In this document: in pieces, positions 22,454-39,764 of the stretch
Numbering within the stretch: position 1 is the first letter of the stretch
How the letters are laid out: the number at the start of each line of letters is the position of its first letter
Assembly: GCA_947623175.1 (NCBI GenBank)
Contig: CANQGK010000004.1
Span: 1 to 64,000, forward strand
Length of the DNA stretch: 64,000 nucleotides
Source of the DNA: an uncultured Clostridia bacterium
GTDB taxonomy: Bacteria; Bacillota; Clostridia; Oscillospirales; Acutalibacteraceae
Reading direction: 5' to 3'
Notes under the pieces: model-generated
Told to the model about the DNA's origin: nothing
The model's input: the letters and a program-made list of their open reading frames with translations, nothing else
The model's database searches: none
Made by a program: the position numbers and the translations under genes

Positions 22454-22461
22454 GATGCCGC

Positions 22462-22679: not shown

Positions 22680-24170
22680 TTATTTTTTCAGCTTTTTCTT
22701 CTTTATAACGGTATAGGTAACCGCGGCGGCGGTAATAAGTATCGCAATGCCGCCCACTACAAAGGAAAGGATTATCGGTAAGGTAAAGAACTTGCTGTAA
22801 TATACCGGAACCTTGCGTTTTACGGTTTCGGTTTCGGTGACTTCCTTGTTTATGGGATCGGGAGTGACGATTATGGGTTCGGGAGTAACGGTGGTTACGT
22901 GCTCGTTTACAACGTATTGACTGCTGCCGCTCGAACCGCCGGAATTACCGCTTTGCGTGTTGGTACTGTTGTTATCATCCTCTTCTTCATCGGGATCGTC
23001 CGCTTCGAAGCTTGCCTGCACCTTATTCCAATCAAGCTTTTGAACCGTTTTGCCGCCGAACATTTTCTGACAGCGGTAATATATCGGCTTGGCTCCATTG
23101 AAAAGACCGTTTTCGCTTGCATACATCATTCCGAAATTTGCTTCGCCGTTCCAGGTATCCTCCTGACGGTATAATTCATCGTAGAACTCATATATCGTAC
23201 AGCCTATGACATGCTCGTCGTTATAAAAATCCTCCAGGCAATATACCAAAGGATCCCAATAAGAGCCGTCCTTCAATTTCGACTTAATAGCAGGATCCGA
23301 AGGATCTATAGGGAATCCTTCGCTGTCGAGTTTACAGCCGCTTAAAGTGTTGGTCCACATATTGCATTCGCAAATAATTATGGGCTTTTTATAGCGATTC
23401 CAAAGCTCCGTGCCCGCGTTAAAGAAATTAAGGCTTCTATCGGTGGGCTTGTAATTCGGGTTGCCGACGGAATACATATCGGAATACCAATCGCTTCCGG
23501 TGACATCCCATTCTATTCCGGCATCCTTTATATAGGTGAGAAAACCGTAGTGAATATAGGCTAAGTTAATTATGATCTTAACGTTGGGATTGCCGCTTCT
23601 GATGCCGCGCTGTGCCGCCCGTATCTGTTCGGCGATAATCCTTAGAGATTCCTGATCGTATTCGCTGACTTCCGTACCTGCTCCCTTGGCGCCGGTCCAG
23701 CCCATAAGTCCGACGTCCATTTCGTTGTCAAGCTGGATATAATCCGCCTTACCGCAGCCGTTTGTGCCGTCGTAACGCTTTGCGATAACCTGGAACCATT
23801 CTTCGATTTCCGTGGTGTCATAATGTACGGTAGGATCGTAGGTCTTGCCCGGAATGTAAACGATAAGCATTACCTTGATGCCGTACGCATTGCAAAGCAT
23901 AACGGTCTTATCAAGCGCGCTGACATTGCCGGTAGCGTCGATACGAAGCAGAGTCGCGCCCATTTCGGCAAGCTGATGAAGCTGTTCTTCGAGATTTCCG
24001 GTACTGTAGGAAGCGCCCCATTCCGGAGCATGCATAACGGATCCCCAATCAAAATCCTTGCGGTAGTTAAGCATAGGATCGCTTTCCGCCGCATTGGTGA
24101 ATACCATTGACGAGGTGACTATGCATACGATGGCGATAACAAGAGATAAAATTTTAATAAAAGTTTTCAT
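22680..24170 (-). CDS. Surface-anchored glycoside hydrolase-like protein (clan GH-A type TIM barrel)
   Basis: The 496-residue protein has a signal peptide (residues 1-28), a TIM-barrel-like catalytic part (about 35-385), a Ser/Gly/Asn-rich linker, and a C-terminal transmembrane helix with a basic end (KKKKLKK). Clan-A hallmarks are visible: an Asn-Glu pair in QLDNEMD as candidate acid/base near residue 157 and a Glu in IIICECNMW as candidate nucleophile near residue 272. The exact GH family and substrate are not clear. It is the last gene of the roughly 16 kb transport operon and would release oligosaccharides at the cell surface. Confidence 0.75.
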   Translation of the reverse strand: MKTFIKILSLVIAIVCIVTSSMVFTNAAESDPMLNYRKDFDWGSVMHAPEWGASYSTGNLEEQLHQLAEMGATLLRIDATGNVSALDKTVMLCNAYGIKVMLIVYIPGKTYDPTVHYDTTEIEEWFQVIAKRYDGTNGCGKADYIQLDNEMDVGLMGWTGAKGAGTEVSEYDQESLRIIAEQIRAAQRGIRSGNPNVKIIINLAYIHYGFLTYIKDAGIEWDVTGSDWYSDMYSVGNPNYKPTDRSLNFFNAGTELWNRYKKPIIICECNMWTNTLSGCKLDSEGFPIDPSDPAIKSKLKDGSYWDPLVYCLEDFYNDEHVIGCTIYEFYDELYRQEDTWNGEANFGMMYASENGLFNGAKPIYYRCQKMFGGKTVQKLDWNKVQASFEADDPDEEEDDNNSTNTQSGNSGGSSGSSQYVVNEHVTTVTPEPIIVTPDPINKEVTETETVKRKVPVYYSKFFTLPIILSFVVGGIAILITAAAVTYTVIKKKKLKK

Positions 24171-24217
24171 ATTTTTTCTCCAGTCTGCCTGATATAAAAT
24201 CAGACGGAAATTTTATT

Positions 24218-25201
24218 TCAGCCCACTATTCCGCTGCGTTCAATACCTTGGATAATTTGTTTTTGAAGCAGGACATAGAAGAGCAAAAGCGGTAATATAG
24301 CCAAAATTGCACCGGCGTTTTGGTTTATGCTTGAGCTGTAATCGCGCAGCTCGGGAGAAACAAGAAGCGAGTTTAATTCGAGTACCAATTGCGATAAGGT
24401 TCCTGTGGTACTGTTGAGAATCGAATAGTAAAAGGTATCGGTCCACTCCCAGGCGAAGGAAAGCGCAAATACAACCACCAGCATCGACCTTGCCATCGGA
24501 AGAATAATGCGAAAGAAGGTGTTCATCACGCCCGAACCGTCAACGTAAGCCGCCTCGATAAGCTCATTCGGAACGCCTGCGTAATACTGTCTGAGCAATA
24601 TTATGAAAATACCCGCGCGGAAGCTCAATCCCGTAAACGAAAGCAAAAGCATTGGCCAAACCGAATCGGTAAGATTTAAGGGCGAGCCGGAAATTGCCTT
24701 TATAATACCAAAAAAATCAAAAAAGCGGAAGGTTGAATAAAGCGGAATTGAAAGCGAAGCGATGGGGATCATCATGGAAACGACAACCAAAACCATAGTA
24801 AGCTTTGCCAACGGAAATTTAAACTTTGCAAGACCGTAGCCTACAAACGCCGCGGAGAAGGTTGCGCCGACGGCTACTATTACCGAAAACATAAAGGTCG
24901 AGCCCATCGCCTTAAAATAGTCGCTGAATCGCAAAATATCGGTATAACGCTCCAGCGTCCATTCCATGGGAATCAATTCAACCAAAACGTTATACAAATC
25001 GTTATCCGACATAAACGAGGAAAGTATTTTAAACAAAAACGGATAAAGAATTATATAAGCAAAGCCGAGAAGTAAAACGAAGGTGAGCAGCTTTACCGAA
25101 TACTCACGAAAAATTCTAATAAAAAACTGCTTGTTAAGTCGCCTTTTGGTTATTCGGCGATTACGCAAAAGCGGTTTTATACCATTTCTGTCGGCAGTCA
25201 T
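24218..25201 (-). CDS. Carbohydrate ABC transporter permease (MalG type), pair 2
   Basis: The 327-residue protein has six transmembrane segments and the ATPase-docking EAA loop ELIEAAYVDGSGVMNTFFRI, followed by LP. A basic N-terminal extension of about 35 residues precedes the first helix. It starts at ATG 25201, overlapping the stop of the MalF-type partner by four bases, with a GGAGG site. Together they form the channel of a type I sugar importer. No ATPase is encoded nearby, so a shared MsmX-like ATPase is expected to serve it. Confidence 0.92.
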   Translation of the reverse strand: MTADRNGIKPLLRNRRITKRRLNKQFFIRIFREYSVKLLTFVLLLGFAYIILYPFLFKILSSFMSDNDLYNVLVELIPMEWTLERYTDILRFSDYFKAMGSTFMFSVIVAVGATFSAAFVGYGLAKFKFPLAKLTMVLVVVSMMIPIASLSIPLYSTFRFFDFFGIIKAISGSPLNLTDSVWPMLLLSFTGLSFRAGIFIILLRQYYAGVPNELIEAAYVDGSGVMNTFFRIILPMARSMLVVVFALSFAWEWTDTFYYSILNSTTGTLSQLVLELNSLLVSPELRDYSSSINQNAGAILAILPLLLFYVLLQKQIIQGIERSGIVG

Positions 25202-26145
25202 AAACGGTACTCCTCCCTCTTAGCACGCTCCGATATTTTGGCGGCTAACACGATTACTCCGAAAATAACGAGCAATATGACGGCTATACACATAAAATAC
25301 ACAAGTGCCATAGCGGCGCCGTGACCGTAATAACCCCGGTTTATCGATATTTCTTTGATATAACCGGCAAGCTCGGTATTGTCTCTTGTAAGGCATTCGA
25401 TCATAGTGTAAATAAGATTTACTACCATGGTGGGAACAATGCTCGGCAGAGTGATCTTCCAGAAAACCTCCCACGAGGAAGCGCCCTCTACCTTTGCGGC
25501 TTCGTAAAGCTGGGGTGAAATCGACTGAATACCCGCAAGGTAGAACAGAATCTGAACGCCGGAGAGATTCATAATATCCATAATATTATTCGCCATATTC
25601 GATACGAATGAAATAAGCTCCGGACTGAAATTAAGGTTCTGCAAAAACTCGGTTATATCCCCTATCGCCGATACGACGGTGGAAGCGTCCGTAGTGGCGG
25701 AGCTGTCGGTCATAAAGGTCATGGCGGAATTGGTCTGGTCGATGGTGCTGAGCATCCCGACGCAAACTATAACCGGTAAAAAGAATATCGCGCGAAAAAC
25801 CGTTCTGCCAGGCACCTTGGAATTTAATATTACCGCGACAAACAGCGCGAATATCAAAATCATCGGCAGAGTTATAACCACGTCCTTGAGGTCATTAAAC
25901 AGTGTGGTCGCGAAGGTAGCGTCTACTCTGAAAATATAACGGAAATTTTCCCATCCGATAAACTTGGTGGTAATGCCGTTTGAAATGCCGACGTCAGAAA
26001 AAGCAAACCGTATTACGGTTACTATCATCTTGATAAGTATAAATACGGTACCGATCCAAAAGGGCAATACAAAAACCATTCCCCAAAGCTGGTTATTTCG
26101 CTTATCGACGGAGAATTTACGTTTTTCGGTCAATTGATTTTTCAT
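25198..26145 (-). CDS. Carbohydrate ABC transporter permease (MalF type), pair 2
   Basis: The protein has 315 residues and six transmembrane helices. An unusual periplasmic-side loop of about 60 residues between helices (around 145-205, ending DIMNLSGVQ) precedes the EAA motif QLYEAAKVEGASSWEVFWKI. It pairs with the MalG-type gene that overlaps its end. An AGGAGG site lies before the ATG, 12 bases after the DUF5696 stop. The inserted loop differs from the pair-1 protein and may contact a different partner than the usual binding protein. Confidence 0.92.
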   Translation of the reverse strand: MKNQLTEKRKFSVDKRNNQLWGMVFVLPFWIGTVFILIKMIVTVIRFAFSDVGISNGITTKFIGWENFRYIFRVDATFATTLFNDLKDVVITLPMILIFALFVAVILNSKVPGRTVFRAIFFLPVIVCVGMLSTIDQTNSAMTFMTDSSATTDASTVVSAIGDITEFLQNLNFSPELISFVSNMANNIMDIMNLSGVQILFYLAGIQSISPQLYEAAKVEGASSWEVFWKITLPSIVPTMVVNLIYTMIECLTRDNTELAGYIKEISINRGYYGHGAAMALVYFMCIAVILLVIFGVIVLAAKISERAKREEYRL

Positions 26146-26157
26146 TTGTAAATCCTC

Positions 26158-28779
26158 CTATTTTAAATTCAAATATCCTAAAGCGGGAACCGTTTTGCCG
26201 TTGTACTTGTAATCGGTGCTTGACTTGTTTACGCAGATTACCGAACCGTTTTCGAAGTAGGAAAGCGAGACGTCTGAGGAAAGCATTTCGTGCTTTACAA
26301 GTCGGGAACCGTCGGTGCCTTTAAGGGCGTCATAAATGTAATTGTAATACTCAACCGCGCGTTTTTTGAGATTTTCAAATCCGCAGGCGTAAAGATAATT
26401 AAAATCGGTAAGCTTTAACAGCTCTATATTGTCATATGCCAATATAAAGGCGGGCGAAGTTGCGGTTTCTATACAGCCGAGCACCTCGCGCATAGGCTCC
26501 TCGCTTAAGTTCACGGGTTCGCCGCTGTAAAAAACCTTGCCGCTTAAAACCAGCTGTAAAAACGGCACCGAAGCGGTTTCGCCTATAAGCGCGGAATTTC
26601 GCATGGGAATTTCCCTTACATAGCTTACGTAAGGCAGTACGTAGGAATTGGCACCCTTTACCGAAAGAGAGTATTCCTCGGAATATTCCTTTAAAATATC
26701 GGTAATATAATTTTTTGCCTGTACACGGTTTGTCGTATTCTTTTTTGAGTTGAAGTCCGAATTCAAATAGGTTCCGAATCCGGCTAAATCAACCGAATTT
26801 ACCCGGTATGATTTGCTTGATTTAAAGAAGCCCTTAAGCAATTTTGCGTATTTTGAAGGGGTGATTGTGAAATTGCTCGTATCTATTTTGCGGGTATTGA
26901 GATCCAAAGACGGAATACCCGAATAGGTCAAATCCAGGCGCTTTGCGGTATCGCGCTTTTTGTTGAAGGAATCGAAAAGCGTATTATTCGCGGTATAAAC
27001 GACGTCCTGCTCGAGATAAACCGGCACCGAACGGTTTTGACATTCGCTCAAAAGCTTTTTTAACTCCTTTTTGCCGCCGAGAGCCGAGGAGGTTTTAATC
27101 TTTTTGTTTAAGGAAGCGTCAAGTCCGTTTTTCTGCCAACCCGAAAGGAGCAAAACTGCGTCTTTTATGCCGTTTTCGGATAAATAATCCAAAATCTCGA
27201 GATTTTGCGCATAGGTGGTAAATTCCGCCTGCGATTTATACTTAAAGCCCAAAAAGGTATTGTCGTAAAGGGCGGTTCCGACGGTATTAAGCACAAATTT
27301 TGTATCGCTCTTGTCGGGATTGTCCTCAGCGCCGCTTTCGGTGAGCTTATCGCGATAAAGCGCCGCCATAGCCGAGTAATTTGCGGAATTGCCCGACAGA
27401 AAATAATACGACAGCGTAAAATCGGTATTGAAAAGATTGGTATCAAAGAGATAAACGGTTCTTGCGGAGCCCATCGACGCGGTCTTTTGATCTATGGTAA
27501 CCGCCATATTCGACGCGTAGGTAAAGGAATTGTAAGCGCAAAAATATCTGCTGTTGGGAGCGCCCAATCTCGTCGTGATCGCGCTTACTTCAGATCCGCT
27601 TTCGATAATCGTAAATATGCCCGAACCGTCATTTTTAACGACGCCGTATACGGGTAAATAGTATTGTTTTGTATCGGAAATAAAATCGTCGGGAATATTG
27701 GACTGATCCTCGCCGTAAACCGTGCCGGTTATTACCGGAGTCCGATTTGCGCCGGTTTGATTGATGTCTATTATCGAGCCCGAACCGTCGGGAATAAAGA
27801 TATAGCCGTTGCCATTCCCCGGTTTATCGGAAACGAAATAGGGCAAAACGTCGATGCCGAGCAGCTTAAAATTATTGCTGTCATAGCTTATGGAGCCGTA
27901 GGGAATATTTACTTTAAGCCCCTCGTCGGTAAGTATGTATTCGAGAGAAAGCTTAAAGTTCGGATGAAAATTAAGATCCTCCTCGAAGCTGTATTTTTCG
28001 GAATCGGCTTTGTACTGCTCCCTGGTATAACCGAGCTTTGCAAAGGTGTCGGTAAGCACCGACTGCTCGCGTTGGCTGAGCTCTGCGGGAACTATGTAAA
28101 GCACTTCCGATTTAAGCAGCGGATAGCTTGCTATAAGCTCCTTCACACGGTTTTCGTCCGAAATTTCCGAAATATCGTTGCGGGTGTAGTAATTTTCGAT
28201 AATATACGCATCCGATTCGGAAAGCTTGCTCATAATTTCCTTGTAATATTCTTCCGAAATTACCTTCGGGTAAAGCGGCTGAGGAATTTCTTCACCGATG
28301 GAATAATCCACCCGCGCGCCGTTTTCAAAGGTTTTAACGGAATATTGCCCCAAAGCCGCGCATTCGGTAGAGGAGAAAATCACCTGCGGCACGTTTTCGG
28401 GATCCACGTAGTTTATTACAAGCTGAGAATCGAGGCGCTCGGCTATCGCTCCGTTATAATACGGATCGGATTTTGCATTATACGGATTACTGCAATGGAA
28501 AACGCCGGATTTTTTGTCCAAAACGGCTATTGAGAGATTTTGCGTATGCAAATACAGCGAATAATTTTCGTTTTCGCATACAAGCTTCATCTCTTTTATC
28601 AAATCGTCCGCCGATTTATAATCGAAGGACGGTTCTTCGGCGGTACCCTCGATCGTAAGTATCGCCTCGCCCGTAAGCAGCGTATTACTCTCCCCGCCGC
28701 TCTTTTCCGCGCTTAAATTAACCGAAAGTCCGGAAAGCATAATCAGAAAAGAGAGAAACAATGCGATTTTTTTCTTCAT
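26158..28779 (-). CDS. DUF5696 domain surface protein, probable carbohydrate-active
   Basis: The 873-residue secreted protein has a signal peptide (residues 1-23) and no C-terminal membrane anchor. Its sequence pattern matches DUF5696, a family tied to sugar ABC operons and suspected to be glycoside-hydrolase-like. The first 400 residues appear beta-rich (for example NYSLYLHTQN, FIPDGSGSIID). The region from about 515 has barrel-type strand-helix alternation (AVLLLSGWQKNGLDASL, then VPVYLEQDVVY). No function is established. It is set between NHL-Yip1 and permease pair 2, with short 15- and 12-base gaps. Confidence 0.82.
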   Translation of the reverse strand: MKKKIALFLSFLIMLSGLSVNLSAEKSGGESNTLLTGEAILTIEGTAEEPSFDYKSADDLIKEMKLVCENENYSLYLHTQNLSIAVLDKKSGVFHCSNPYNAKSDPYYNGAIAERLDSQLVINYVDPENVPQVIFSSTECAALGQYSVKTFENGARVDYSIGEEIPQPLYPKVISEEYYKEIMSKLSESDAYIIENYYTRNDISEISDENRVKELIASYPLLKSEVLYIVPAELSQREQSVLTDTFAKLGYTREQYKADSEKYSFEEDLNFHPNFKLSLEYILTDEGLKVNIPYGSISYDSNNFKLLGIDVLPYFVSDKPGNGNGYIFIPDGSGSIIDINQTGANRTPVITGTVYGEDQSNIPDDFISDTKQYYLPVYGVVKNDGSGIFTIIESGSEVSAITTRLGAPNSRYFCAYNSFTYASNMAVTIDQKTASMGSARTVYLFDTNLFNTDFTLSYYFLSGNSANYSAMAALYRDKLTESGAEDNPDKSDTKFVLNTVGTALYDNTFLGFKYKSQAEFTTYAQNLEILDYLSENGIKDAVLLLSGWQKNGLDASLNKKIKTSSALGGKKELKKLLSECQNRSVPVYLEQDVVYTANNTLFDSFNKKRDTAKRLDLTYSGIPSLDLNTRKIDTSNFTITPSKYAKLLKGFFKSSKSYRVNSVDLAGFGTYLNSDFNSKKNTTNRVQAKNYITDILKEYSEEYSLSVKGANSYVLPYVSYVREIPMRNSALIGETASVPFLQLVLSGKVFYSGEPVNLSEEPMREVLGCIETATSPAFILAYDNIELLKLTDFNYLYACGFENLKKRAVEYYNYIYDALKGTDGSRLVKHEMLSSDVSLSYFENGSVICVNKSSTDYKYNGKTVPALGYLNLK

Positions 28780-28794
28780 GCGGCTCCGTCCTTT

Positions 28795-30924
28795 CTATGA
28801 TCTGTAAGAAATTTCCTGTGAAATATTTATAATAAGCGAAATCATTTTGCCTATTACGTTGGAAAATACCAAAAGTATAAAGAGTATAAATACTATACCG
28901 ATAATAGTAAGCAGGCTTACAAGAATATTTTTGCCCAGCGTATAATCGTGAACGGTCATCATGCCGCAGAAAATCAGCAGCAATACCCAAGCCAAAGTAA
29001 AGGCGGTAAACATAGCGAGTATATTAAGCTCGCTTTCCACCAAAACGTAGCTTATAAGCGTACAGGGTATGGTTAGCAAGGAATAAGGAACCGTAGCGTA
29101 GCCGACGGCTATATAAACGTCCTTAAATGAGCCCTTGCCGTTCATAAGCGTGGTAAAGCATACGTTTGATACGCACCATAACAACAGCGGGAAAAGCGTG
29201 TTTGCCAAGGCGGAAATTATAGTGGCGTCCTGCCCTTTTTGGAGATAGCATGCGCCGAGCGTCGAGAAAATCGCGCTGAAAGAGCCTATCGCATACAAAA
29301 CCGTAGCCGAACGGACGCTTCCGCGTTTTTCGAATTTCAAGCTCCAATAGCCCTTGAACGGGTGCGTCATAAGATAAAATCCGTAGAGCAATTCGTCCTT
29401 AAGCTTTCCCGTTGCCGCCTTTTCGGTCATCTTGTTGTTATACTTGCCTATAAAGCCCCAAAGCTTTATCAAAGCCAAAATCAAAACTACGACGGCGGCA
29501 AGTATGGGCATACCGTACTTATTTAAAAACTTTTTGCGTGAAAGCTCAAACGCCTTGCCCCAATAGGTTTTATTGTTGATAAGCTTGAAATAATGCATGG
29601 CGCGGCTGTAATCGCCTTCCTCGAGGGCAATTTTGCCGAGTCCCAAATAAGCCATATCGAAGTTATTGTTTTTAACGAGAATTTCCTGCCAGAGCTCGTC
29701 GGCTTTATCAAATTCTCGGTTATCCTGATAACCGATAACGCGATCGATCAAAATACCGTATTCGGTCTTAAGCGATACCGTTACGGTGGCGTCGGCGGAA
29801 TCGAGCGTGTAGAGATAATCGCCGTTAAACGCCATACCCTCAAGCTGAGTATAAACTCCGAGACCCGAGCCCTCTCCGCCGAAGGCGTAAAGGAGGTTGC
29901 CGTTTGAGTCGTAAACGAATATTTTGTGACCGCTGCTGTCAAGCAGGGCGTACATACCGTTGTCAAGCAAGGTAACGGCGGTAATTTCCGACGCGGGGGT
30001 ATCGTCATTGCTCGTATAAGCGTCAAATATAACGTCGCCTACCGGCGGAAAAAATCCGTTGCGCACCAAAACGTCGGTACCGGCGGGATTTATCTTTTTT
30101 ATAGGCGCGTACGCGCTGTCACTGCTGCGAGACTGAACCGACGAATAAAGCGAGTAGCGGTCTATCTGAGAGGAGGTCACATATACAAATCCCTTTTGAT
30201 CTACCGTAAGGTCGCTGAATTCCACCGGAACAAACTGAATACTGCGGGATATCTGCTCCTCGGTCATAAAAGCGCGCTTGATAAGCTCAAAAGCGTCCGC
30301 CGTTACCTGCTGTGCGCCGATAAAGCCCTCGAAGCTTCCGTCGCTGTCCAACGCTATGACTCCCATATTTGAGTTTTTGGAAACGACGTAAACGCGGTCC
30401 GCCCTGTCAACCGCGACGGCGATTGGATTGTACTTGAAGCCGTCGGGTAAAATGTCGGACGATAGGGGCGGCAGAATGTTTTTGAAATTAAAATTTTTAT
30501 CGAAGATCACAATACGCGAATTATTGGTATCGGCGACGTACAAATCGCCTTTTCCGGTCACGTATACGCCGGTGGGGGCGTCAAAGGTATCCTCTGCGCC
30601 GTCGGCGCCCTTAAAGCCGGTTATGATCTTAACCGAATTAAAATCGGTATCGGTAACAACAATGCGGTTATTTCCGGTATCGGCAAAAATTATATGCTTA
30701 CCGAGCTCGTCGTAATATATGTCCTTGGGAGCGTTAAGGGTGCCCGCTTCGCCGAATTCGGATATTTCATACAGCGAATCGTAGGCGGCGGGAGAAATTT
30801 GCATTTTGCCCTCATAAGAATAGGTATAGGTTTCGTTATTCGAAACCGCCGCGGCTCCTACGGAGGGTACGGCTATGCACAGCACCGCAAAGAGGACTAT
30901 GCATGATAAAATTTTTCTTTTCAT
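28795..30924 (-). CDS. NHL beta-propeller plus Yip1-domain membrane protein
   Basis: The 709-residue protein starts with a signal peptide (to about residue 26). Five or six NHL-type repeats follow (IIFADTGNNRIVV, LYVADTNNSRIVIF, then later units to about 380), forming an extracellular beta-propeller. A TPR-like helical part comes next (about 395-455, YLGLGKIALEEGDYSRAMHYF), then one transmembrane helix near 470 and a five-helix Yip1-type domain to the end. It starts at ATG 30924 after GGAGG; a TTG two codons earlier is less well spaced. The role is unknown, but the link to paired sugar permeases suggests a membrane scaffold or sensor for the importer. Confidence 0.82.
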   Translation of the reverse strand: MKRKILSCIVLFAVLCIAVPSVGAAAVSNNETYTYSYEGKMQISPAAYDSLYEISEFGEAGTLNAPKDIYYDELGKHIIFADTGNNRIVVTDTDFNSVKIITGFKGADGAEDTFDAPTGVYVTGKGDLYVADTNNSRIVIFDKNFNFKNILPPLSSDILPDGFKYNPIAVAVDRADRVYVVSKNSNMGVIALDSDGSFEGFIGAQQVTADAFELIKRAFMTEEQISRSIQFVPVEFSDLTVDQKGFVYVTSSQIDRYSLYSSVQSRSSDSAYAPIKKINPAGTDVLVRNGFFPPVGDVIFDAYTSNDDTPASEITAVTLLDNGMYALLDSSGHKIFVYDSNGNLLYAFGGEGSGLGVYTQLEGMAFNGDYLYTLDSADATVTVSLKTEYGILIDRVIGYQDNREFDKADELWQEILVKNNNFDMAYLGLGKIALEEGDYSRAMHYFKLINNKTYWGKAFELSRKKFLNKYGMPILAAVVVLILALIKLWGFIGKYNNKMTEKAATGKLKDELLYGFYLMTHPFKGYWSLKFEKRGSVRSATVLYAIGSFSAIFSTLGACYLQKGQDATIISALANTLFPLLLWCVSNVCFTTLMNGKGSFKDVYIAVGYATVPYSLLTIPCTLISYVLVESELNILAMFTAFTLAWVLLLIFCGMMTVHDYTLGKNILVSLLTIIGIVFILFILLVFSNVIGKMISLIINISQEISYRS

Positions 30925-30935
30925 ACACAAGCCTC

Positions 30936-31808: not shown

Positions 31809-31823
31809 TTTTGCTATACCTCC

Positions 31824-32729
31824 TTAATCTCCCACTCCGGCGAGGAATTTTTGCATTATCTTGTTAAAGCCGATCATCATAAAGAAGAGTACCACGGCAA
31901 TTGCCGACGCATAGCCCATTTCAAAACGGGTTGAGCCGTAGTCGGTCAAATGGTTCATTATGGTGTGGGCGGCATAATCGGTAGTGGGATAACCGCACAA
32001 AGCCGTTATCGCAGGGCCTATGGAGAAGGATGAGGTAATGCTCATAAGCGAGCTGAACATCATTTGAGGGCGCAGCAGCGGCATGGTGATATACCACAGC
32101 TCCTGCCATCTGTTTTTGATGCCGTCAATCGCTCCGGCTTCGTAATAGGTTCTGTCGATCCCCTGAAAAGCCGCAATCAAGCTTAAAAAGCCGGTGCCGA
32201 GGCTGGTCCAAAGGGATATTATGATTATTACCCAGATCATATAATCGGGGTTTGTAAAAAACTGTATCGGCTCGGTAATAAAGCCCAAACGGGTAAGAAT
32301 GCTGTTGGCATAACCGTAATCGTCGCCGCTGAAGAAAATCGACCAGATAAGGTAGGCATTTCCCGAAATGGAGGGCGCGTAAAAAATCAAGGTGACGATC
32401 GATCGTATAACGGGCGAAAGCTCGTTAATAAACCAGGCGCATATAAGGCTCATCAAAAATCCGCCGGGGCCTAAAATGACTGCAAACACAATCGTGTTTT
32501 TTACACCGGTAACAAAAACACTGTCCGAAAAAAACAGTCTGCTGTAGTTGGCAAATCCCACAAATTTGGGCCACTCCAAAACGTTAAAGGAGGTGAAGCT
32601 GAAAATTATGGAAATTATAACGGGCAGAACCGTAAAGGTGAAAAAAATCAAGATATAGGGCAGTATAAATAAATATCCTATCTTTCCCCTGTTCATAGCC
32701 TGAAGTAAATTTTCACGCTTTTTTTTCAT
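31824..32729 (-). CDS. Carbohydrate ABC transporter permease (MalF type), pair 1
   Basis: This is a 301-residue, six-helix permease with an EAA loop (YYEAGAIDGIKNRWQELWYI). I choose ATG 32729, which follows the solute-binding-protein stop by 7 bases. The frame extends upstream to 32792 but that part lies inside the upstream gene. The ribosome-binding site is weak (GGATTGGATTG), which suggests coupling to the preceding gene. It would form a heterodimer with the next permease and receive sugar from the large binding protein. Confidence 0.9.
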   Translation of the reverse strand: MKKKRENLLQAMNRGKIGYLFILPYILIFFTFTVLPVIISIIFSFTSFNVLEWPKFVGFANYSRLFFSDSVFVTGVKNTIVFAVILGPGGFLMSLICAWFINELSPVIRSIVTLIFYAPSISGNAYLIWSIFFSGDDYGYANSILTRLGFITEPIQFFTNPDYMIWVIIIISLWTSLGTGFLSLIAAFQGIDRTYYEAGAIDGIKNRWQELWYITMPLLRPQMMFSSLMSITSSFSIGPAITALCGYPTTDYAAHTIMNHLTDYGSTRFEMGYASAIAVVLFFMMIGFNKIMQKFLAGVGD

Positions 32730-32736
32730 TATAGAA

Positions 32737-35532
32737 TCAATCCAATCCAAATTCTTTGTGCTTGCGTGCGAGTTCCTCGTCCAATTCTTCAACGTAATCG
32801 GTCAAAGTTTCCGAAGGATTTTCCAAATTGTTGTATACGCGGTTAAACGCGAAGTTGATTACACGCGTCAGATAATAACCGCCGGGCATCTGCGGAACGG
32901 CAGTAACGTTATCCATTTGAGCAAGCAGCGCGTTTCTTTCGCTGTTGGTCCACGCCATATTAAACAATGCGTCGGTATTGGCGGTATTGACCTTGGCACA
33001 GCTGCCCAATATACTTTCCATTCGCTGTGCGAAGGAAACCTGAATATCGTCCGACATGTACCATTTGATAAAATTCCAGGCAAGCTCTTTGTTTTTGCTC
33101 GATTTCATCATCATAATATAGGTGATTGTCGAGGATGAAATATTATTGATACTGCCGTCCGGCTGTTCGGTTCCGGGAATGGGAACCATATTCCAACAGC
33201 CTTTGATTTCGGGCGCAAAGGCAACCAGCTGATTGTATTCGGTATAATAAGCAATAGCGCAGGGCATTTCGCCGCTTCTGAAGCGGTTGGAAAAGTTATA
33301 TGTAACCGAGCAGTCGTAAAGGGTGAAATACTCGGTAAAATCGGTAAACTTCTCAAGCGCTTTATTGGAATTGATATTTGATTTTCGCAAATCGTCCGAA
33401 TAAAGCTTGCCGCCGTCTTGATACAAAAGTGTCGAATAGAAAACCAAATCGTGCGGAATACCGATCTCAAGCGCATTTCTCTGCAATGAGGGTATCATAT
33501 CGCAAAGCTCCTGCCAGGTCTTCGGTACCGTGTATCCGTATTCGTCGAAAATATCGGTCCTGTAAAAGAACATAAAGAAGGTGCTCGTCTGCGGAATACC
33601 GTATACCTTTCCGCCGTAGGTGGCAGGCTTGAACGCCGATTCGGGGAAGGATTTTGCAAATTCGTCAAAATCGGGAAATTCGCTAAAATCGACAACCGCG
33701 TTTCTGAGCGCGTAATCCATCGGAACCGACTCCAAATTATCGAGTACCACGTCGGGAGAAATTCCCGCAAGCACCGATTCGAGCAGGGTGCCGGTAACTA
33801 TCTGAAGCTGTACCGCGGCATTGTTGCTTTTGGCAAAATCCTTGTTTATAAGCTCGCGGATGATTTCGCCCTGATCGCGTCCGGTCTGTATCCAGACCTT
33901 TAAGGCGTTCGCGCTTTTTTCGCCGCCTACGGAATCATAATCGGTAATGTAGGAGGACAAAAAGCTTCTCAAGCCGAAAAGGAAATTCTTAAAAAATCCG
34001 ACGTCCGCTTTCGGAGTTTCGCCGCCCTGCGGTATTATATATATGCGGTCGATTTCCAGAGGCTGTTCCGCGGCGGTCAACAGCCATTCGCCCAAGGAAC
34101 CCAGGTTCGATTTAAAGCGCTTGAAATGCTTGGCTATTTTTCGCGGATCCTTGGTCATTTCCTTTATCTGGAAAATGATCTTATCTATGACGGATACGTA
34201 ACTGCCGTTTGCGCCGGCCTGCTTGTTTATATAATCGACGGAAGCCTGCATCCGCTCCCCTATCTGCTCTAAGAGCTCAAGCTCGCCGGGTATAAGCTCG
34301 TCAAAGTGATAATCGCGGTTAACGTCAAGATTGGTACCCGTAATAAGAACTATCTTACGCGCAATATCGTTAAGATCCTTTAAGGTTTCGGATATTGTGG
34401 AAACGATGTCGGCAACGTCGCCCTGAACCGCTTCGAGGCATATCTCGTGACTGCCCTCGGTAAGATAAAAAGCGAAGCTGTCGTCGCCGCCCAATTTATC
34501 GCATTTCCAATCATTGTCGTAATAAAAGCGCAGATTTGCCGCCTCCGCAAAGGGAAGCGTATTATCGATAGTGAGCTTTCGGCTTACGAATATACCGTCC
34601 TTAACGTTTTGAATGGAGCGAAGCGCAATTTCGTACATTCCGCTCTTTTGAACGTCAAATTTCCAAATTACGCGGTCGCCTACCGTTTTCCAGCTGTTGC
34701 CGCCCACGGTGTTGAGCTTTAAATTGCTGTCCGACTGCGGATAGGTTGCGGCGGAGGTTCTGTTGGACTGCGGCAGGAGTGTTACGGAATTTTTGTAATT
34801 GAATTTTTCGCCTTCGATTATAATAGTGTCGGCTTCGGGCGCGGTGTAACCCTTTGCTTTGCATTCCTCGAGATATTCCTTATAGGTTACGGGCTCCTTG
34901 TAGGAGGTAAAGGTGATCTCCCCTACTTTAAACGAACCGCGGACTCCCGAAAGGCGCAGAGTGTGAGCACCCGGCTTTAATACGAATATCAAAGGATGGG
35001 TTATGTAGCCGTCGGCGTCCGAAATTTCGGTGGTTTGCCAATCGGTCACCTGAGTGACCTCCGGCTTAATATCGTTGCCGGTGCCGTCGACCTCAAAATC
35101 GTCCGTGCTTTGCTCGTAAAGCCGCTTAAAGCTGAGTACCGACGCCTCGTCAAAAGGAATTTTTCCGTCTAAAGAAAGGCTGTAGTCGATATCGCCGCCG
35201 GCATTATCGGCAGCGGCATACTTAACCCTGATTATATATGCCGACTCTTTTTGCGTATTAAAGCGCCATTGCGCGTAACCGTTGTCGTTGACGGTAACGC
35301 CCTCCTTATCCGGGCTTGCGGGATATACGACGTCCTTGTTTGTAAGGGTAAATTCCGCACCGAACGAGAGGTCGGGATAGGCTTTGATATAATCGGTATA
35401 ACCGAATTCCTTATCGTTTGACGTTTTGCCGATTTCGTCCGCCGAAACCGAAGCTTCGGCGGAAAAAACCGGTAGCGCAAAACAGGAGGTCAATACCGTT
35501 AATATAACTAAAAGACCGATGAGCTTTTTCAT
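32737..35532 (-). CDS. Giant extracellular solute-binding lipoprotein with N-terminal carbohydrate-binding-like modules
   Basis: The protein has 931 residues, whereas sugar-binding proteins normally have 400-550. A lipobox is plausible (LTSC, Cys at residue 17). Residues about 50-215 and 250-375 look like two jelly-roll modules (YAQWRFNTQKESAYIIRVKY and VIWKFDVQKSGMYEIALRS). A helical stretch (about 380-510) leads to a family-1-type binding domain from about 560 to the end (TYGGKVYGIPQTSTFFMFFY, LAWNFIKWYMSDD). It is expected to hold a glycan chain outside the cell and feed pair-1 permeases. It overlaps nothing and follows the surface protein by 4 bases. Confidence 0.88.
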   Translation of the reverse strand: MKKLIGLLVILTVLTSCFALPVFSAEASVSADEIGKTSNDKEFGYTDYIKAYPDLSFGAEFTLTNKDVVYPASPDKEGVTVNDNGYAQWRFNTQKESAYIIRVKYAAADNAGGDIDYSLSLDGKIPFDEASVLSFKRLYEQSTDDFEVDGTGNDIKPEVTQVTDWQTTEISDADGYITHPLIFVLKPGAHTLRLSGVRGSFKVGEITFTSYKEPVTYKEYLEECKAKGYTAPEADTIIIEGEKFNYKNSVTLLPQSNRTSAATYPQSDSNLKLNTVGGNSWKTVGDRVIWKFDVQKSGMYEIALRSIQNVKDGIFVSRKLTIDNTLPFAEAANLRFYYDNDWKCDKLGGDDSFAFYLTEGSHEICLEAVQGDVADIVSTISETLKDLNDIARKIVLITGTNLDVNRDYHFDELIPGELELLEQIGERMQASVDYINKQAGANGSYVSVIDKIIFQIKEMTKDPRKIAKHFKRFKSNLGSLGEWLLTAAEQPLEIDRIYIIPQGGETPKADVGFFKNFLFGLRSFLSSYITDYDSVGGEKSANALKVWIQTGRDQGEIIRELINKDFAKSNNAAVQLQIVTGTLLESVLAGISPDVVLDNLESVPMDYALRNAVVDFSEFPDFDEFAKSFPESAFKPATYGGKVYGIPQTSTFFMFFYRTDIFDEYGYTVPKTWQELCDMIPSLQRNALEIGIPHDLVFYSTLLYQDGGKLYSDDLRKSNINSNKALEKFTDFTEYFTLYDCSVTYNFSNRFRSGEMPCAIAYYTEYNQLVAFAPEIKGCWNMVPIPGTEQPDGSINNISSSTITYIMMMKSSKNKELAWNFIKWYMSDDIQVSFAQRMESILGSCAKVNTANTDALFNMAWTNSERNALLAQMDNVTAVPQMPGGYYLTRVINFAFNRVYNNLENPSETLTDYVEELDEELARKHKEFGLD

Positions 35533-35536
35533 TATG

Positions 35537-38500
35537 TTAATTTAATCCTCCGCGTTTATTCTTTCGACGGGAAAGAACAACAAGAAGTATACTTCCGCCA
35601 ATCAAAATAACCGATACTATGCAGGTGACTATAAGCACAATCCAATGTTCCTTTGCAATTGTGTCGATCATAACCTTTTGCTTTTTGATTATGCGGTTAT
35701 TGATATATGTGGTGTTTTCCTCGGGAGTGAGAGTAATTATCTCCGCTTCCTCGTAATTGGTAATGTAGGTATCCTGCGTAGGCTGTTTTTGATTATTAAC
35801 CGATGAGTTGTTATTGCCGGTATTTCCACCGGATTGAGGCTCGTCGATAACGGGATTTCCCAAATCTATGTCAAAGGTTTTGGCGATACGTATATTGTCA
35901 AGACCAAAGAGGAAATAATCCTGATAAGGACCGTAAACGGCAAACGGGGTATTCAAAGTTACCTCTATCGCGAAGGACTGAATACTCGACCAATCCGCCG
36001 ACTGCTTGGAGTCTTCCTTTTTAAAGGAGCTTAAAGGAATATCAAAGCTGTTCCAGCCCAATTTAAAGGTCGAAGCCTTTATGTTGTAGATGAAGTTATC
36101 GCGGGAATTACGGGTATCGCTTGAGAGATAAACCTTGAAATCACAGGTTTTTACCAAATCAAGATCGTCGACAAACAAATCAAATCTTATGCTCTTTGAC
36201 GCGGAAAGATCGGCGGGAGCCGCAAAGAGGAATCGGTGAGAATTCATTGCCGCCGTTTCTCTGTTGGTAACCTGTAAAAATGCGGCGCCCTTACCCTCGG
36301 TCTTGTAATCGGTGCTGAAATAAGTGTTGGAGGACGACCAGATACCTACCTCGGAGGTATTGGCGGAATCACAGTCGCTGACGTAGCGCGCGTCTTTATC
36401 GGGCATAGCAGGCTTATCCTTATCGAACGCCAAAGCGGCGCGTTTTCCAAGGCACATATTGGCGATTATCATGCGCTTGCCCCTGAGATTACCGTCTATA
36501 AAGAAGCGGCAAATTGTCGAAGGATCAAAAGCTGTGGCAGTCTGTGAAGCAAAATTCGCTATGGGTATTCTTATATGAGTCCATTCGTTCGTATTTACGG
36601 AGAACGGCGCGGTGCCTCTTCCGTTTTCGGAAGCAAAGAAATCGTAATCGCGGTTGCAAAGCTTGAAGTTGGTATCGAGTACGGGAGTATACTTAGGATC
36701 GCTCTCGTCGCATACAAGATAGGCGTCAAACTCTAAATAATCCGCTTTTGTGGCGTCGTAGGCTTCGCCCTCGGGGCTGTACATTGTTCTGGAGGAGCCG
36801 TCCGGCATTTGTTGTTGATATCTGATATCCGGAAGATCGTCGAATGTAACGTCGTTATCGTAAAATTCGTTATATCTTATGGTTACGTCGCTCCATTTAA
36901 CCAAGAAGTTCGAATCTTTGCCCAAATCCACTACGTCCTTTGTCGGAGCGGCGGGCGCCGTAATTTTTGTAAAGCAGAAATTCTTAATTACATAACGCGA
37001 ATTTGCAATAACGTTATCGAGCAATATGGAGGCAACGTTCTTTTTATCGCCGCCACTCGAGAGCGCCGCGACGAGCATTCTTACATGCTGTACGCTGTTA
37101 TACGAGCAGGCTCTTCTGCCGAGAATTTTCCTGCCGGAAGTATCGACAAAGTAGAGATCCATACTTTCGGGCAATACCGTGGAATCCAATGGAGTATCTA
37201 TATAAATATCAAACTCAACATAGTCGTAATTCTCTAAATTACAGGTTTCGCCCAAAGGAGTAGTCGTATCGGCGGGCACATTATTTGATACGGCGGTATA
37301 GTAATCGATTTTAACGTCGTCAAAGGTTTTTACGGCGTTGTAAGGATAGCCGTCCTTTATATCTATATTCGTATCGGTAAGGTAGAAGTTTGCAAGGAAA
37401 TAGCGGGTATCCTTATATAATTCGGAAATATTTACAGCCGCTACCTTAGTAAAATCAAAACCGTCCTCGGCTTCAAAAGCTTTTACGAAAACCTTAACGT
37501 TTACCCATTCCTCGGGTTTTACGACTATATCGTAAGAGGCGGTTTTGCCGGCGGCGTCTTTAAGGTTTAATTTTAAATTCTGAACGTCGTCGGTTACCGA
37601 AGCGCAGTAAACGTCGACTACCACGTGCTCGTTTTTGGAAATATCGGCAAAGCTCTCAAATTCGTGATATTCCAATGCGGTGCCGTTATCGGTGCTGAAG
37701 TAATTCTCGAGAATACCCTCGGCGGGCTTGCTTGCCGCGTCGTCGGGAATTTTCGGAGCGTCAACCGACGCGGTCTTAAGGAGGAGGTTGCAAAGAACGT
37801 AGCGATAACCGTTTTCGGTGCCCATGATCCTTACGCCGGAAATTTTATCGGTTTTACAGTCCTTAACCTTCAAATAGGTTACGGGTATTTTAATATGGTT
37901 CCAACTGTCGGTTTTGATATGTAATTTATACGAAGCGGTATTGCTGCCGAATTTCGAATCGGAATTACAGTCAATATCGGTAAAAGCGACCGTCGGAGAA
38001 ACGTAGATCGATTCTTCGATGGTATTTAAAACGTAAATGTCAAATTCGATAAAGTCCTTGCTTAAAATATCTACGGTATCTATATCGTCAAAGGCAAAAA
38101 TCCGAGAATTGGCAGAGTTCTTGTCATTGTCCACAAGGTCTATTCTTTCCGCCAGATAGTCGATATTACCCGTCGGAATTTCTTCGGGTCTTTTTATACC
38201 GGTAAGGCAAAGATTTATGCATTGATATTGAATCCACGGTTCGGGATTGTTTATTCTGTAGCCGACAACGTTTTTCATATCGATGCCCTCGGCTTCAAAA
38301 TCGTCGGTGGCAATTTTAATATCGGTCCAACGGTTGCTTGCGATATTAAAAGAATGAGTGGCTATACTGCCGTCGGCGTCGAACAGAGCTATCTGAACCC
38401 TGCCGGAAAAATTAGCGGAGGGGATTATAAGCATATCAAATTCGAAATAATCGTAATCCGCGCTCGTAAAATCAACCGACTGTGAAAACTCGGTTTCGGA

Positions 38501-38692
38501 ATCCTCCGCCTTCGGAGTCATTCCCTGGAAATCAAGATTGGCGTTAAGCTCCAATACGGTTCTCGGCGGATATTCCGTAGGAACGTCCTCCTCGGGGTCT
38601 ACCGCCCCGGTAATAAAGCCTAAGGGTAATTGTGCACAAAGAATTATTGCCGTAAGTAAAATGATGAATAAACTCGTAAACTTCTTTTTCAT
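35537..38692 (-). CDS. Membrane-anchored surface protein with six tandem carbohydrate-binding-like repeats
   Basis: The protein has 1051 residues. A signal peptide (1-30) is followed by about six repeats of 100-120 residues, each with a core such as YDYFEFDMLI, KDFIEFDIYVL, YDYVEFDIYI or ADYLEFDAYL and a later 'W..I.IP' strand (NHIKIPVTYL, THIRIPIANF). Repeats begin near residues 65, 195, 335, 475, 635 and 815. An Asn/Gln-rich stalk, one transmembrane helix near 1015 and a basic tail end the chain. The repeats look like jelly-roll carbohydrate-binding modules. It is the first gene of the operon and presumably catches polysaccharide on the cell surface. I do not recognise a named family. Confidence 0.75.
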   Translation of the reverse strand: MKKKFTSLFIILLTAIILCAQLPLGFITGAVDPEEDVPTEYPPRTVLELNANLDFQGMTPKAEDSETEFSQSVDFTSADYDYFEFDMLIIPSANFSGRVQIALFDADGSIATHSFNIASNRWTDIKIATDDFEAEGIDMKNVVGYRINNPEPWIQYQCINLCLTGIKRPEEIPTGNIDYLAERIDLVDNDKNSANSRIFAFDDIDTVDILSKDFIEFDIYVLNTIEESIYVSPTVAFTDIDCNSDSKFGSNTASYKLHIKTDSWNHIKIPVTYLKVKDCKTDKISGVRIMGTENGYRYVLCNLLLKTASVDAPKIPDDAASKPAEGILENYFSTDNGTALEYHEFESFADISKNEHVVVDVYCASVTDDVQNLKLNLKDAAGKTASYDIVVKPEEWVNVKVFVKAFEAEDGFDFTKVAAVNISELYKDTRYFLANFYLTDTNIDIKDGYPYNAVKTFDDVKIDYYTAVSNNVPADTTTPLGETCNLENYDYVEFDIYIDTPLDSTVLPESMDLYFVDTSGRKILGRRACSYNSVQHVRMLVAALSSGGDKKNVASILLDNVIANSRYVIKNFCFTKITAPAAPTKDVVDLGKDSNFLVKWSDVTIRYNEFYDNDVTFDDLPDIRYQQQMPDGSSRTMYSPEGEAYDATKADYLEFDAYLVCDESDPKYTPVLDTNFKLCNRDYDFFASENGRGTAPFSVNTNEWTHIRIPIANFASQTATAFDPSTICRFFIDGNLRGKRMIIANMCLGKRAALAFDKDKPAMPDKDARYVSDCDSANTSEVGIWSSSNTYFSTDYKTEGKGAAFLQVTNRETAAMNSHRFLFAAPADLSASKSIRFDLFVDDLDLVKTCDFKVYLSSDTRNSRDNFIYNIKASTFKLGWNSFDIPLSSFKKEDSKQSADWSSIQSFAIEVTLNTPFAVYGPYQDYFLFGLDNIRIAKTFDIDLGNPVIDEPQSGGNTGNNNSSVNNQKQPTQDTYITNYEEAEIITLTPEENTTYINNRIIKKQKVMIDTIAKEHWIVLIVTCIVSVILIGGSILLVVLSRRKNKRGGLN

Positions 38693-38747
38693 GGAATTTA
38701 CCTCCGAAATAAATACATATTATAATAATGTACAATTCTCTAACTTT

Positions 38748-38776
38748 ATTTTATACATTATTAGATAAATTTGCAA
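38748..38776 (-). promoter_or_regulatory. Probable promoter of the glycan operon
   Basis: On the minus strand TTGCAA (38771-38776) and TAAAAT (38748-38753) are 17 bp apart, about 55 bases upstream of the first start codon. The whole divergent interval (38693-38912) is AT-rich and must also hold the AraC-type operator. Confidence 0.6.
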
Positions 38777-38842
38777 TACACAATATTTTGTTTTACATAT
38801 ACAGAATTGACTTTTTTGTATAAATATTCTATATTCTTTGTA

Positions 38843-38871
38843 TTGACTGTGCGGTTTTTTTATTATATAAT
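38843..38871 (+). promoter_or_regulatory. Promoter of the AraC-family regulator gene
   Basis: TTGACT (38843-38848) and TATAAT (38866-38871) are 17 bp apart, 41 bases before the regulator's ATG. The match to the sigma-A consensus is strong, so the regulator is probably made constitutively at a low or moderate level. Confidence 0.8.
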
Positions 38872-38912
38872 ACAAGTAAAGACAGAATATCACCCTAAAA
38901 GGAAGTAAACGT

Positions 38913-39764
38913 ATGGATTTCTCGATGGAAGAAATAGAGAACCATTTAAACAAAAGTTATTCGGTTGAGTGGGGCGATTTGGAATTTGCCGAAAATGAAT
39001 GCCTTATAAAACCGCATTGGCATGAAAAGTATGAATTTATTTTCGTAAATAAGGGCAGCGTGAAATTCATTATAGACAATCAGGAATATTTCGCCCCCGA
39101 AAACTCCATCATATCCGTATCGCCCAATATGCTTCATACGGGCTGGGCGGGCAGTACGGGATGCAACATTTTCAACGTGACCTTCAATCATAAATATCTT
39201 TTGGACGATTCGGTTTACGAGCAATCGCTTAAAAACAGCTTTATAAATCATACCATTGAGATCGAGCCGATAATAACCGATCCCACCGCCGTAAGCTATT
39301 TTAAAAATATATGGAACAATCGAAACAACGATATTATATCAAAGCCTATTTTGGAAAAAGGGCTTATATGCATTTTCTTTTCCTATCTTGTTGAAAATTT
39401 TTCTACCAACCATATTCTCAACAAATCCAAAAGCGCCAAATTCAACAGTATTCTCGAATACATAAACCAAAACTACACCAATCAGATAACCACCGAACAA
39501 ATCGCCGAGCATTTTTCATACAACAAATCGTATTTTTGCAGAAAATTTCAGGAAAACACGAAAATCACGCCTACCGAGTATATACTTCGCCTGCGGATAA
39601 ACCACTCGCAAAAGCTTATGACCACAAGCTCGCTTTCGCTTAACAGCATAGCCGCGCAAAGCGGATTTGCTACATATCCGTATTTTTCCGCAAAATTCAA
39701 ACAGCTTGTCGGTATCTCGCCCGTCGAATGGCGAAATAAATTTATAAACAATCAAAAGAGCTGA
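38913..39764 (+). CDS. AraC-family transcriptional regulator with cupin sensor domain
   Basis: The protein has 283 residues. An N-terminal cupin-like beta-barrel (residues about 20-110, with LIKPHWHEKYEFIFVNKGSV) should bind a sugar ligand. The C-terminal pair of helix-turn-helix motifs (about 180-280) has the AraC signature TTEQIAEHFSYNKSYFCRKF and the second helix region ending in SPVEWR. It is transcribed away from the 16 kb glycan operon and shares its intergenic region, which is the usual place for the local activator. The ribosome-binding site is AAAGGAAG. Confidence 0.92.
   Translation: MDFSMEEIENHLNKSYSVEWGDLEFAENECLIKPHWHEKYEFIFVNKGSVKFIIDNQEYFAPENSIISVSPNMLHTGWAGSTGCNIFNVTFNHKYLLDDSVYEQSLKNSFINHTIEIEPIITDPTAVSYFKNIWNNRNNDIISKPILEKGLICIFFSYLVENFSTNHILNKSKSAKFNSILEYINQNYTNQITTEQIAEHFSYNKSYFCRKFQENTKITPTEYILRLRINHSQKLMTTSSLSLNSIAAQSGFATYPYFSAKFKQLVGISPVEWRNKFINNQKS

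Follow-up and report, generated by a model that had tools for sequence, protein, structure and literature searches.

How can one bacterial operon make use of two pairs of sugar permeases when it encodes a single visible solute-binding protein (SBP) and no ATPase? The question is raised by a gene cluster in a 64,000-nucleotide stretch of DNA (hereafter the window; positions 1 to 64,000 of contig CANQGK010000004.1, assembly GCA_947623175.1) from an uncultured Clostridia bacterium of the family Acutalibacteraceae. A first-pass annotation had described here one minus-strand unit for glycan capture, which lies at positions 22680-38692. The list of open reading frames (ORFs) and a Pfam scan bear this out: the named genes are open frames in the proposed places and belong to the expected families, and no ATPase is found among the ten window proteins scanned. 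Seven of the genes form the core of the system discussed here:

32737..35532, minus strand: giant SBP, 931 residues, core gene 1 (SBP_bac_8/SBP_bac_1)
31824..32792, minus strand: permease F1, MalF/UgpA type, core gene 2 (BPD_transp_1)
30936..31808, minus strand: permease G1, MalG/UgpE type, core gene 3 (BPD_transp_1, EAA loop)
28795..30930, minus strand: NHL-Yip1 protein, core gene 4 (NHL beta-propeller, weak TPR-like segment, hydrophobic helix 476-494, Yip1 membrane domain)
26158..28779, minus strand: DUF5696 protein, 873 residues, core gene 5 (DUF5696 model 495.7 bits; resembles GH129/GH101 glycosidases distantly)
25198..26145, minus strand: permease F2, MalF/UgpA type, core gene 6 (BPD_transp_1, EAA loop)
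24218..25201, minus strand: permease G2, MalG/UgpE type, core gene 7 (BPD_transp_1, EAA loop)

We propose, with moderate confidence, that the window carries one of several copies of a conserved ABC (ATP-binding cassette) importer for glycans, built of two modules and served by a shared ATPase. Module 1 would consist of the giant SBP, with its carbohydrate-binding-like arms, and permease pair 1 (F1 and G1). Module 2 would consist of NHL-Yip1, DUF5696 and permease pair 2 (F2 and G2), usually with a second, ordinary SBP encoded nearby. In the predicted division of labour, whose substrates and physical contacts are likewise putative, copy-specific surface proteins and glycoside hydrolases would hold or cut the glycan, pair 1 would receive larger fragments from the giant SBP, and pair 2 another class of products from the second SBP. 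One standalone MalK/UgpC/MsmX-type ATPase would power both pairs in all copies. For NHL-Yip1 the most likely role would be assembly or clamping, and for DUF5696 the binding or trimming of glycan at the surface.

A recurring seven-gene core

The window locus is one of about 14 cassette copies in its own genome. The assembly spans 2.38 Mb in 54 contigs and is 94% complete, and cassette counts may therefore be off. The DUF5696 model matched it 15 times, 14 of the matches covering nearly the full model length, and the Yip1 model matched 14 times, each match just upstream of one of these 14 near-full DUF5696 matches. When neighbouring genes were labelled by comparison with the window proteins, the order giant SBP-F1-G1-NHL-Yip1-DUF5696-F2-G2 was found in every complete DUF5696 locus (13/13), in agreement with the earlier proposal that these seven genes belong together. 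The fourteenth cassette is split. Contig C2 starts with a partial NHL-Yip1 gene followed by DUF5696 and F2, with no G2 after them (L022), and contig C3 (L107) carries within its first 11 kb, on the minus strand, G2, a second SBP, a 537-residue protein, the giant SBP, F1, G1 and a partial NHL-Yip1 gene. We infer that these two pieces are one cassette in which G2 has moved away from F2. NHL and Yip1 are separate ORFs in two of the own-genome copies (L012 and L015), and across many loci of other genomes they are either fused or two neighbouring genes. The copies are well diverged, with mean pairwise identities of 46% for F1, 44% for G1, 34% for G2, 32% for F2, 31% for the giant SBP, 28% for NHL-Yip1 and 24% for DUF5696. 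Most BPD_transp_1 matches of the genome (55/60) fall in cassette permeases. In 60 other genomes of the same genus, many of them incomplete, the number of DUF5696 matches per genome ranged from 0 to at least 11, a variation that suggests gain and loss of cassettes.

The core is also found well beyond this genus. We labelled loci of other genomes with profiles of the seven core families built from the own-genome cassettes. The first sample comprised the 80 top-ranking of at least 569 confirmed relatives, ordered by their likeness to a single F1 protein, and it leans to close relatives. Full core order was present in 62 of these 80 loci, with L028 and L073 counted as full although DUF5696 and G1, respectively, are split there in two ORFs; 14 others were cut by contig ends, and in L053 and L086 the core is rearranged, with pair 2 in front. 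The 80 loci come from records named Clostridia, Oscillospiraceae, Lachnospiraceae, Paenibacillus, Lederbergia, Thermoanaerobacterium, Butyrivibrio and Mahella, an Acholeplasmataceae metagenome-assembled genome (MAG) and Treponema MAGs, among others; the core occurs in those named Clostridia, Lachnospiraceae, Paenibacillus, Lederbergia, Thermoanaerobacterium, Butyrivibrio and Treponema. The complete cassettes in three Treponema MAG loci (L079, L100 and L106) lie outside Firmicutes, pointing to lateral transfer or to contigs binned wrongly.

Because the first sample was picked by F1, we also took DUF5696-centred samples, with one locus per genome. One covers 20 of the 22 genomes with a DUF5696 match in other families of the same order (G075 and G080 left out). 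Elsewhere in the phylum, 299 genomes were scored and 26 passed the DUF5696 cut-off. Two of these had been seen before, and of the 24 new ones 20 were sampled (G276, G301, G302 and G337 left out). Full core order was found in 19/20 loci of the same order, the remaining one (L121) being cut by a contig end, and in 12/20 elsewhere in the phylum, or 31/40 together. L147 has the full order with G1 in two ORFs, L134 is cut upstream, and L150 has all seven core genes with module 2 first. In L150 the giant SBP had seemed to serve pair 2 alone, an idea that was dropped when F1 and G1 were found in the missing 2.5 kb beyond the slice. Four loci (L135, L137, L138 and L143) have module 2 with no module 1 seen, although in L137 fewer than 400 bases remained to search beyond the upstream SBP. 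F2 and G2 come after DUF5696 in all 40 loci, at distances of at most 27 and 129 bases, respectively.

Chance neighbourhood is excluded by the repeated occurrence of these seven genes in one order, both in the window's own genome and in others. The first-pass annotation had reasoned that its proposal would fail if the permease pairs of relatives belonged to unrelated operons with their own binding proteins. Pair 2 does have its own SBP in relatives, as described below, but the pairs mostly stay together: they were found together in 64 of the 66 F1-centred loci that could be judged and in 33 of the 40 DUF5696-centred loci, of which three were cut or limited and four had no module 1.

Probable receptors and a candidate ATPase for two permease pairs

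By its parts, the system is a CUT1-type ABC importer, for which ATP-dependent sugar transport is putative. All four window permeases are over the PF00528 cut-off, and the strict EAA pattern was found in 11/13 G1, 9/14 F2 and 12/13 G2 sequences. None of the F1 sequences (0/13) has it; F1 keeps a loop, YEAGAIDG...P, with a different spacing, in which E197, A198, G203 and P217 are invariant. The SBP_bac_1/8 proteins of a CUT1 importer are present as the giant SBP and as the second SBPs of other cassettes.

The giant SBP belongs to a family of approximately 900-1300 residues and is built of N-terminal carbohydrate-binding-like modules, a helical stretch and a C-terminal SBP fold (553-837). Two stretches of the family profile, 298-397 and 236-396, align with parts of cycloisomaltooligosaccharide glucanotransferases (E 3.6e-8 and 4.5e-6, respectively), a region that we take to be CBM35, and a third, 432-495, matches designed coiled coils. 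The protein had been read as a binding lipoprotein with its own carbohydrate-binding-like modules. The glucanotransferase matches support the modules, but lipoprotein status is doubtful: the window protein has a lipobox-like Cys17, and a crude pattern test, which missed some plausible cases, found a lipobox in 9 of 75 homologues and none in the other 66. The same pattern was found in 29/36 second SBPs and 18/75 DUF5696 proteins.

Pair 2 had seemed to be without an obvious receptor. This is true of the window, where no second SBP is visible, but a second ordinary SBP is encoded on the same strand near 13 of the 14 own-genome cassettes, the window being the sole exception. First slices showed such a protein, of 477-593 residues, in 9 of the 13 complete cassettes; six were also recognised by Pfam, and three flanking proteins without a Pfam match (L014, L015 and L018) turned out to be second SBPs by a profile that was seeded with six own-genome proteins and widened once. 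Wider slices added second SBPs for L011, L019 and L020, and the split cassette has one too. In six cassettes (L012, L014, L015, L016, L021 and the split one) the second SBP lies directly beside G2, 27-141 bases apart. The four loci in which module 2 but not module 1 was seen have the same arrangement, with an SBP_bac_1 protein directly after G2 in L135, L138 and L143 and, by profile only, an SBP directly after G2 in L137; in L137 and L138 the next gene is a GH42 gene. In the DUF5696-centred samples, a second SBP was visible in 17/20 slices from elsewhere in the phylum and in 2/20 from other families of the order, which reach less far downstream; such counts in relatives are lower bounds where flanks are short. 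In L133 and L136, G2 is followed by three or four consecutive second-SBP-like ORFs, a pattern that would suit a duplication of receptors; some of the L133 ORFs may be pieces of a single gene. The puzzle of the pair 2 receptor is largely answered by these second SBPs. For the window cassette, a second SBP may lie on the unassembled far side of a conjugative element, because this element abuts the cassette and the contig starts inside it. A lone SBP on contig C32 was considered as the displaced receptor and rejected, as it scored 15.5 bits against 151-415 for the 13 own-genome second SBPs and sits beside a flippase-like gene.

The first-pass annotation had suggested that a shared MsmX-like ATPase energises both pairs. 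With the OB_MalK model a single ATPase was detected in the 94%-complete assembly, where ATPases without an OB_MalK domain were not searched for. This protein has 380 residues; the Walker A, signature and Walker B motifs can be read from its sequence, and it is over the UgpC-subfamily cut-off (493.5 bits vs 432). Its gene stands alone, with neighbours read as pseudouridine synthase and isoprenoid genes rather than transporter genes. PMC5730181 and PMC7658222 describe MsmX of B. subtilis as energising several importers. Because one MalK-type ATPase was found, it is likely shared by all cassettes, a reading in line with the earlier suggestion.

Linkage between the modules and the roles of NHL-Yip1 and DUF5696

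To compare the histories of the core proteins we used tree distances over 75 cassettes, from which the partial correlations are exploratory numbers. All seven proteins follow a common distance pattern (Pearson r 0.68-0.87). Partial correlations were 0.31 for F1-G1, 0.44 for F2-G2 and 0.34 for giant SBP-F1, and those of the giant SBP with F2 and G2 were -0.09 and 0.16. NHL-Yip1 was spread over both modules (0.19-0.28). DUF5696 had partial correlations of 0.26 with the giant SBP, 0.25 with NHL-Yip1, 0.22 with F2 and 0.00 with G2, and its highest-ranking partner in 200 subsamples was the giant SBP 90 times, NHL-Yip1 63 times and F2 47 times. Second SBPs were left out of this comparison, as their distances were saturated (mean 3.06 over 36 sequences).

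Several observations weigh against the two-module importer as we propose it. Our confidence in it is lower because the tree comparison does not group DUF5696 cleanly with module 2. Module 1 occurs without module 2 in L089, which holds only giant SBP-F1-G1; L093 has no F2 or G2 in the 2 kb after DUF5696; and L142 shows neither a second SBP nor a module 1 gene immediately upstream, on a contig that ends 1.7 kb beyond NHL-Yip1. The receptor assignment has its own difficulties. Besides the missing second SBP of the window, those of L011, L019 and L020 lie 5.8-9.4 kb off with genes between, where shared transcription is only putative. Among the 62 relatives that hold each core gene once (a set that differs from the 62/80 above in that L028 and L073 are out and the rearranged L053 and L086 are in), a same-strand second SBP was visible within the flanks of 29 and not within those of 33, many of these flanks being short.

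That each module can occur without the other would fit two importers that are neighbours only through shared regulation, with no functional hand-over between them. We think this quite unlikely, given that most loci across the phylum, and also the three Treponema MAG loci, preserve the gene order, and that the same-genome copies all hold the whole core. The opposite extreme is a single machine with one main receptor, in which the four permease subunits would form one twin-channel complex clamped by NHL-Yip1, the giant SBP would feed both channels and the second SBP would be optional. The common distance pattern of the seven proteins is consistent with such a complex, though common inheritance alone could give that pattern, and so are the positive partial correlations of NHL-Yip1 with both modules, the single visible SBP of the window cassette and the 66/75 giant SBPs without a lipobox by the crude test, which may be held by partners. 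A single machine nevertheless appears unlikely to us, since four loci have module 2 with no module 1 seen and L089 has module 1 without module 2, a second SBP lies near 13/14 own-genome cassettes, and the partial correlations of the giant SBP with pair 2 are those given above (-0.09 with F2, 0.16 with G2).

The putative assembly role of NHL-Yip1 has a possible parallel. Passages in PMC4887032 describe YknW, a Yip1-family protein, as modulating the assembly of the YknXYZ ABC complex in Bacillus, and in passages of PMC10707071 a Yip1 gene accompanies the ABC genes of the bawcin cluster. Both YknW and the protein described here are Yip1-family membrane proteins that would serve an ABC system. YknWXYZ is an efflux pump, whereas the Yip1 domain here is often fused to NHL and linked to importer-type permeases. 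The TPR matches of the window NHL-Yip1 protein were below cut-off. In the literature searched, which left most subscription journals and all bioRxiv preprints outside, we found no combination of Yip1 with carbohydrate transport, no mention of DUF5696, and no description of a two-pair core with NHL-Yip1 and DUF5696.

DUF5696 resembles, as a distant relative in sequence, the GH129/GH101 glycosidases. Its profile matched, over part of its length, a 3,6-anhydro-D-galactosidase chain (5opq, E 7.1e-16) and an alpha-N-acetylgalactosaminidase chain (5wzq, E 1.2e-9), and 5wzn also matched. Passages in PMC8106489 assign the 5wzn enzyme to GH129, with a catalytic domain that resembles GH101. The window DUF5696 protein on its own matched neither PF11308 nor the GH101 model at E 0.1; PF11308, the GH129 model, had no match in 249 genomes of the phylum nor in the controls and was therefore uninformative. 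The weak fifteenth DUF5696 match of the genome (L024, 6769-9261) also matches Glyco_hydro_101, with no core transporter genes in its 17 kb slice. This L024 homologue sits among large unscanned ORFs, and its matched glycosidase chain is 5a55.

The conservation of acidic residues bears on whether DUF5696 is an enzyme. D675 is Asp in 54/65 and E771 is Glu in 59/65 DUF5696 sequences, and no acidic residue is invariant across the 65. We presume the nucleophile position from that of the GH101-like L024 homologue; the corresponding column, aligned by hand through a weak match (22 bits), is Asp in 4/65 sequences. Given that this presumed nucleophile column is unconserved, DUF5696 may have a glycosidase fold and yet act as a binding protein. 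It is possible, although we would not bet on it, that DUF5696 is instead an active membrane-bound GH129/GH101-like glycosidase that trims glycans before import, a role compatible with the two-module importer. The matches to the two glycosidase chains, the Glyco_hydro_101 match of the diverged same-genome homologue and the retention of E771 and D675 in most sequences argue for activity, and the rarity of Asp in the presumed nucleophile column (by that weak hand alignment) and the lack of an invariant acidic residue argue against it.

The first-pass annotation had also named DUF5696 as a candidate receptor of pair 2. It is encoded directly before pair 2 in 40/40 loci, and all 75 sequences have a hydrophobic N-terminus (with a lipobox in 18). 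This role is improbable: ordinary SBPs lie near 13/14 own-genome cassettes, adjacent to pair 2 in the four loci where no module 1 was seen, and near most copies in the sample from elsewhere in the phylum (17/20, vs 2/20 in the same order, where downstream reach was shorter). In addition, the sequence signature of DUF5696 is glycosidase-like, not binding-protein-like, and its partial correlations with pair 2 (0.00 with G2, 0.22 with F2) do not single it out as a partner.

Known uptake systems and the variable surroundings of the core

Each module resembles the type I ABC sugar importers that lack an ATPase gene of their own, with one SBP and two MalF/MalG-type permeases per module and a standalone MalK-type ATPase elsewhere in the genome. 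Unlike them, the loci described here have two pairs in one conserved order, an oversized SBP with extra modules and the constant partners NHL-Yip1 and DUF5696. The GH129/GH101 hydrolases (5opq, 5wzn and 5wzq) are part-length relatives of DUF5696, which differs in its unconserved presumed nucleophile column and its putative activity. The cassettes lie in gpPUL-like loci. As defined in passages of PMC5320581, a Gram-positive polysaccharide utilization locus (gpPUL) brings together a polysaccharide-degrading enzyme, a transport system and a transcriptional regulator. Enzyme, transport and regulator genes are grouped in the same way here, and in the window a GH53-like enzyme, for which polysaccharide degradation is only putative, the transport core and an AraC regulator are co-located. 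Unlike in gpPULs, the transport part is a seven-gene core present about 14 times in one genome, and neither NHL nor YIP appears in the main text of PMC5320581.

A repeated uptake core of this kind invites comparison with a system from another phylum. SusC/SusD pairs of Bacteroidetes consist of a TonB-dependent porin and the SusD lipoprotein, and form an uptake core that is repeated beside different enzymes. The cassettes share this many-times repeated core with differing enzymes and differ in that they use ABC permeases, not TonB-dependent porins; SusC/SusD families were not seen among the ten window proteins scanned, all of which belong to other families. A more speculative extension, which we regard as doubtful, is that both pairs, NHL-Yip1 and DUF5696 form one membrane-bound twin-channel machine, in which the giant SBP would pass long glycans through or past a catalytically dead, glycosidase-fold DUF5696, two classes of product would be imported side by side, and NHL-Yip1 would act as a clamp. 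This would be an unrecognised glycan-uptake complex, the Firmicutes counterpart of SusCD in Bacteroidetes. If the two-module importer is correct, DUF5696, NHL-Yip1 and two permease pairs together would mark substrate-specific uptake loci in uncultured bacteria, and complex-glycan import by Gram-positive bacteria would become testable.

While the core is constant, the recognised periphery differs between copies. We scanned 39 flanking proteins and the L024 homologue with Pfam, and 12 of the 40 had no match. Flanking enzymes include GH65 (L018), GH36 and GH16 (L019), GH78 with BNR proteins (L017), two GH5 (L021), GH26 (L023) and pectate-lyase-like and esterase genes (L011). GDSL proteins flank L022 and L023, and dockerin proteins flank L013, L014, L020 and L022. 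In the window, the variable part of the cassette and its regulator are:

35537..38692, minus strand: surface protein, 1051 residues, with a signal peptide, beta-sandwich-like repeats and a C-terminal hydrophobic anchor
22680..24170, minus strand: GH53-like clan-A glycoside hydrolase (31.9 bits, cut-off 24) with a C-terminal hydrophobic anchor
38913..39764, plus strand: divergent AraC-family regulator with a cupin-type sensor domain (Pfam scan)

The anchored clan-A-like hydrolase and the divergent regulator are both as first described. The hydrolase has candidate catalytic residues Glu150 (in an NE motif) and Glu268, roles that we assign from general knowledge of clan GH-A. Six repeats had been counted in the surface protein; by segment alignment and its z-scores, five of them are related and the sixth is related weakly. 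A BLAST comparison of the protein with itself detected no repeats, which the segment alignment did detect. Its Pfam matches were below cut-off (CBM30, CIA30, and Agarase_CBM at 18.6 bits vs 26.3). Neither the hydrolase nor the surface protein had another phmmer match at E 1e-3 among the ORFs of the window, L011-L024 and L027-L106.

The genes of the window unit are transcribed in the order surface protein, giant SBP, F1, G1, NHL-Yip1, DUF5696, F2, G2 and GH53-like hydrolase. As the first-pass annotation had noted, they are tightly packed, with gaps of 4, 15, 5, 15, 12 and 47 bases and two overlaps, and show no strong internal terminator: terminator-like sites were not enriched in region 21900-40200 (18 observed vs 24.1 expected from shuffled sequence). 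Start codons were assigned mechanically, and the 56-base overlap of F1 probably reflects a start codon (listed as TTG) that was called too early, with the true start downstream.

Other genes of the window lie on either side of the cassette. Genes of the conjugative element within 1-22044 encode a TraG/VirB4-like ATPase, an NlpC/P60 protein, a topoisomerase, a 1013-residue ArdA/ArdC/LPD34 protein, a relaxase, a MobC/NikA protein and a large serine recombinase with DUF4368, whose gene ends 0.6 kb from the cassette hydrolase gene. Beyond the AraC gene, positions 40168-41811 encode, on the cassette strand, a DUF624 (YesL-like) protein, and also a 244-residue protein with a sub-threshold ion-channel match only.

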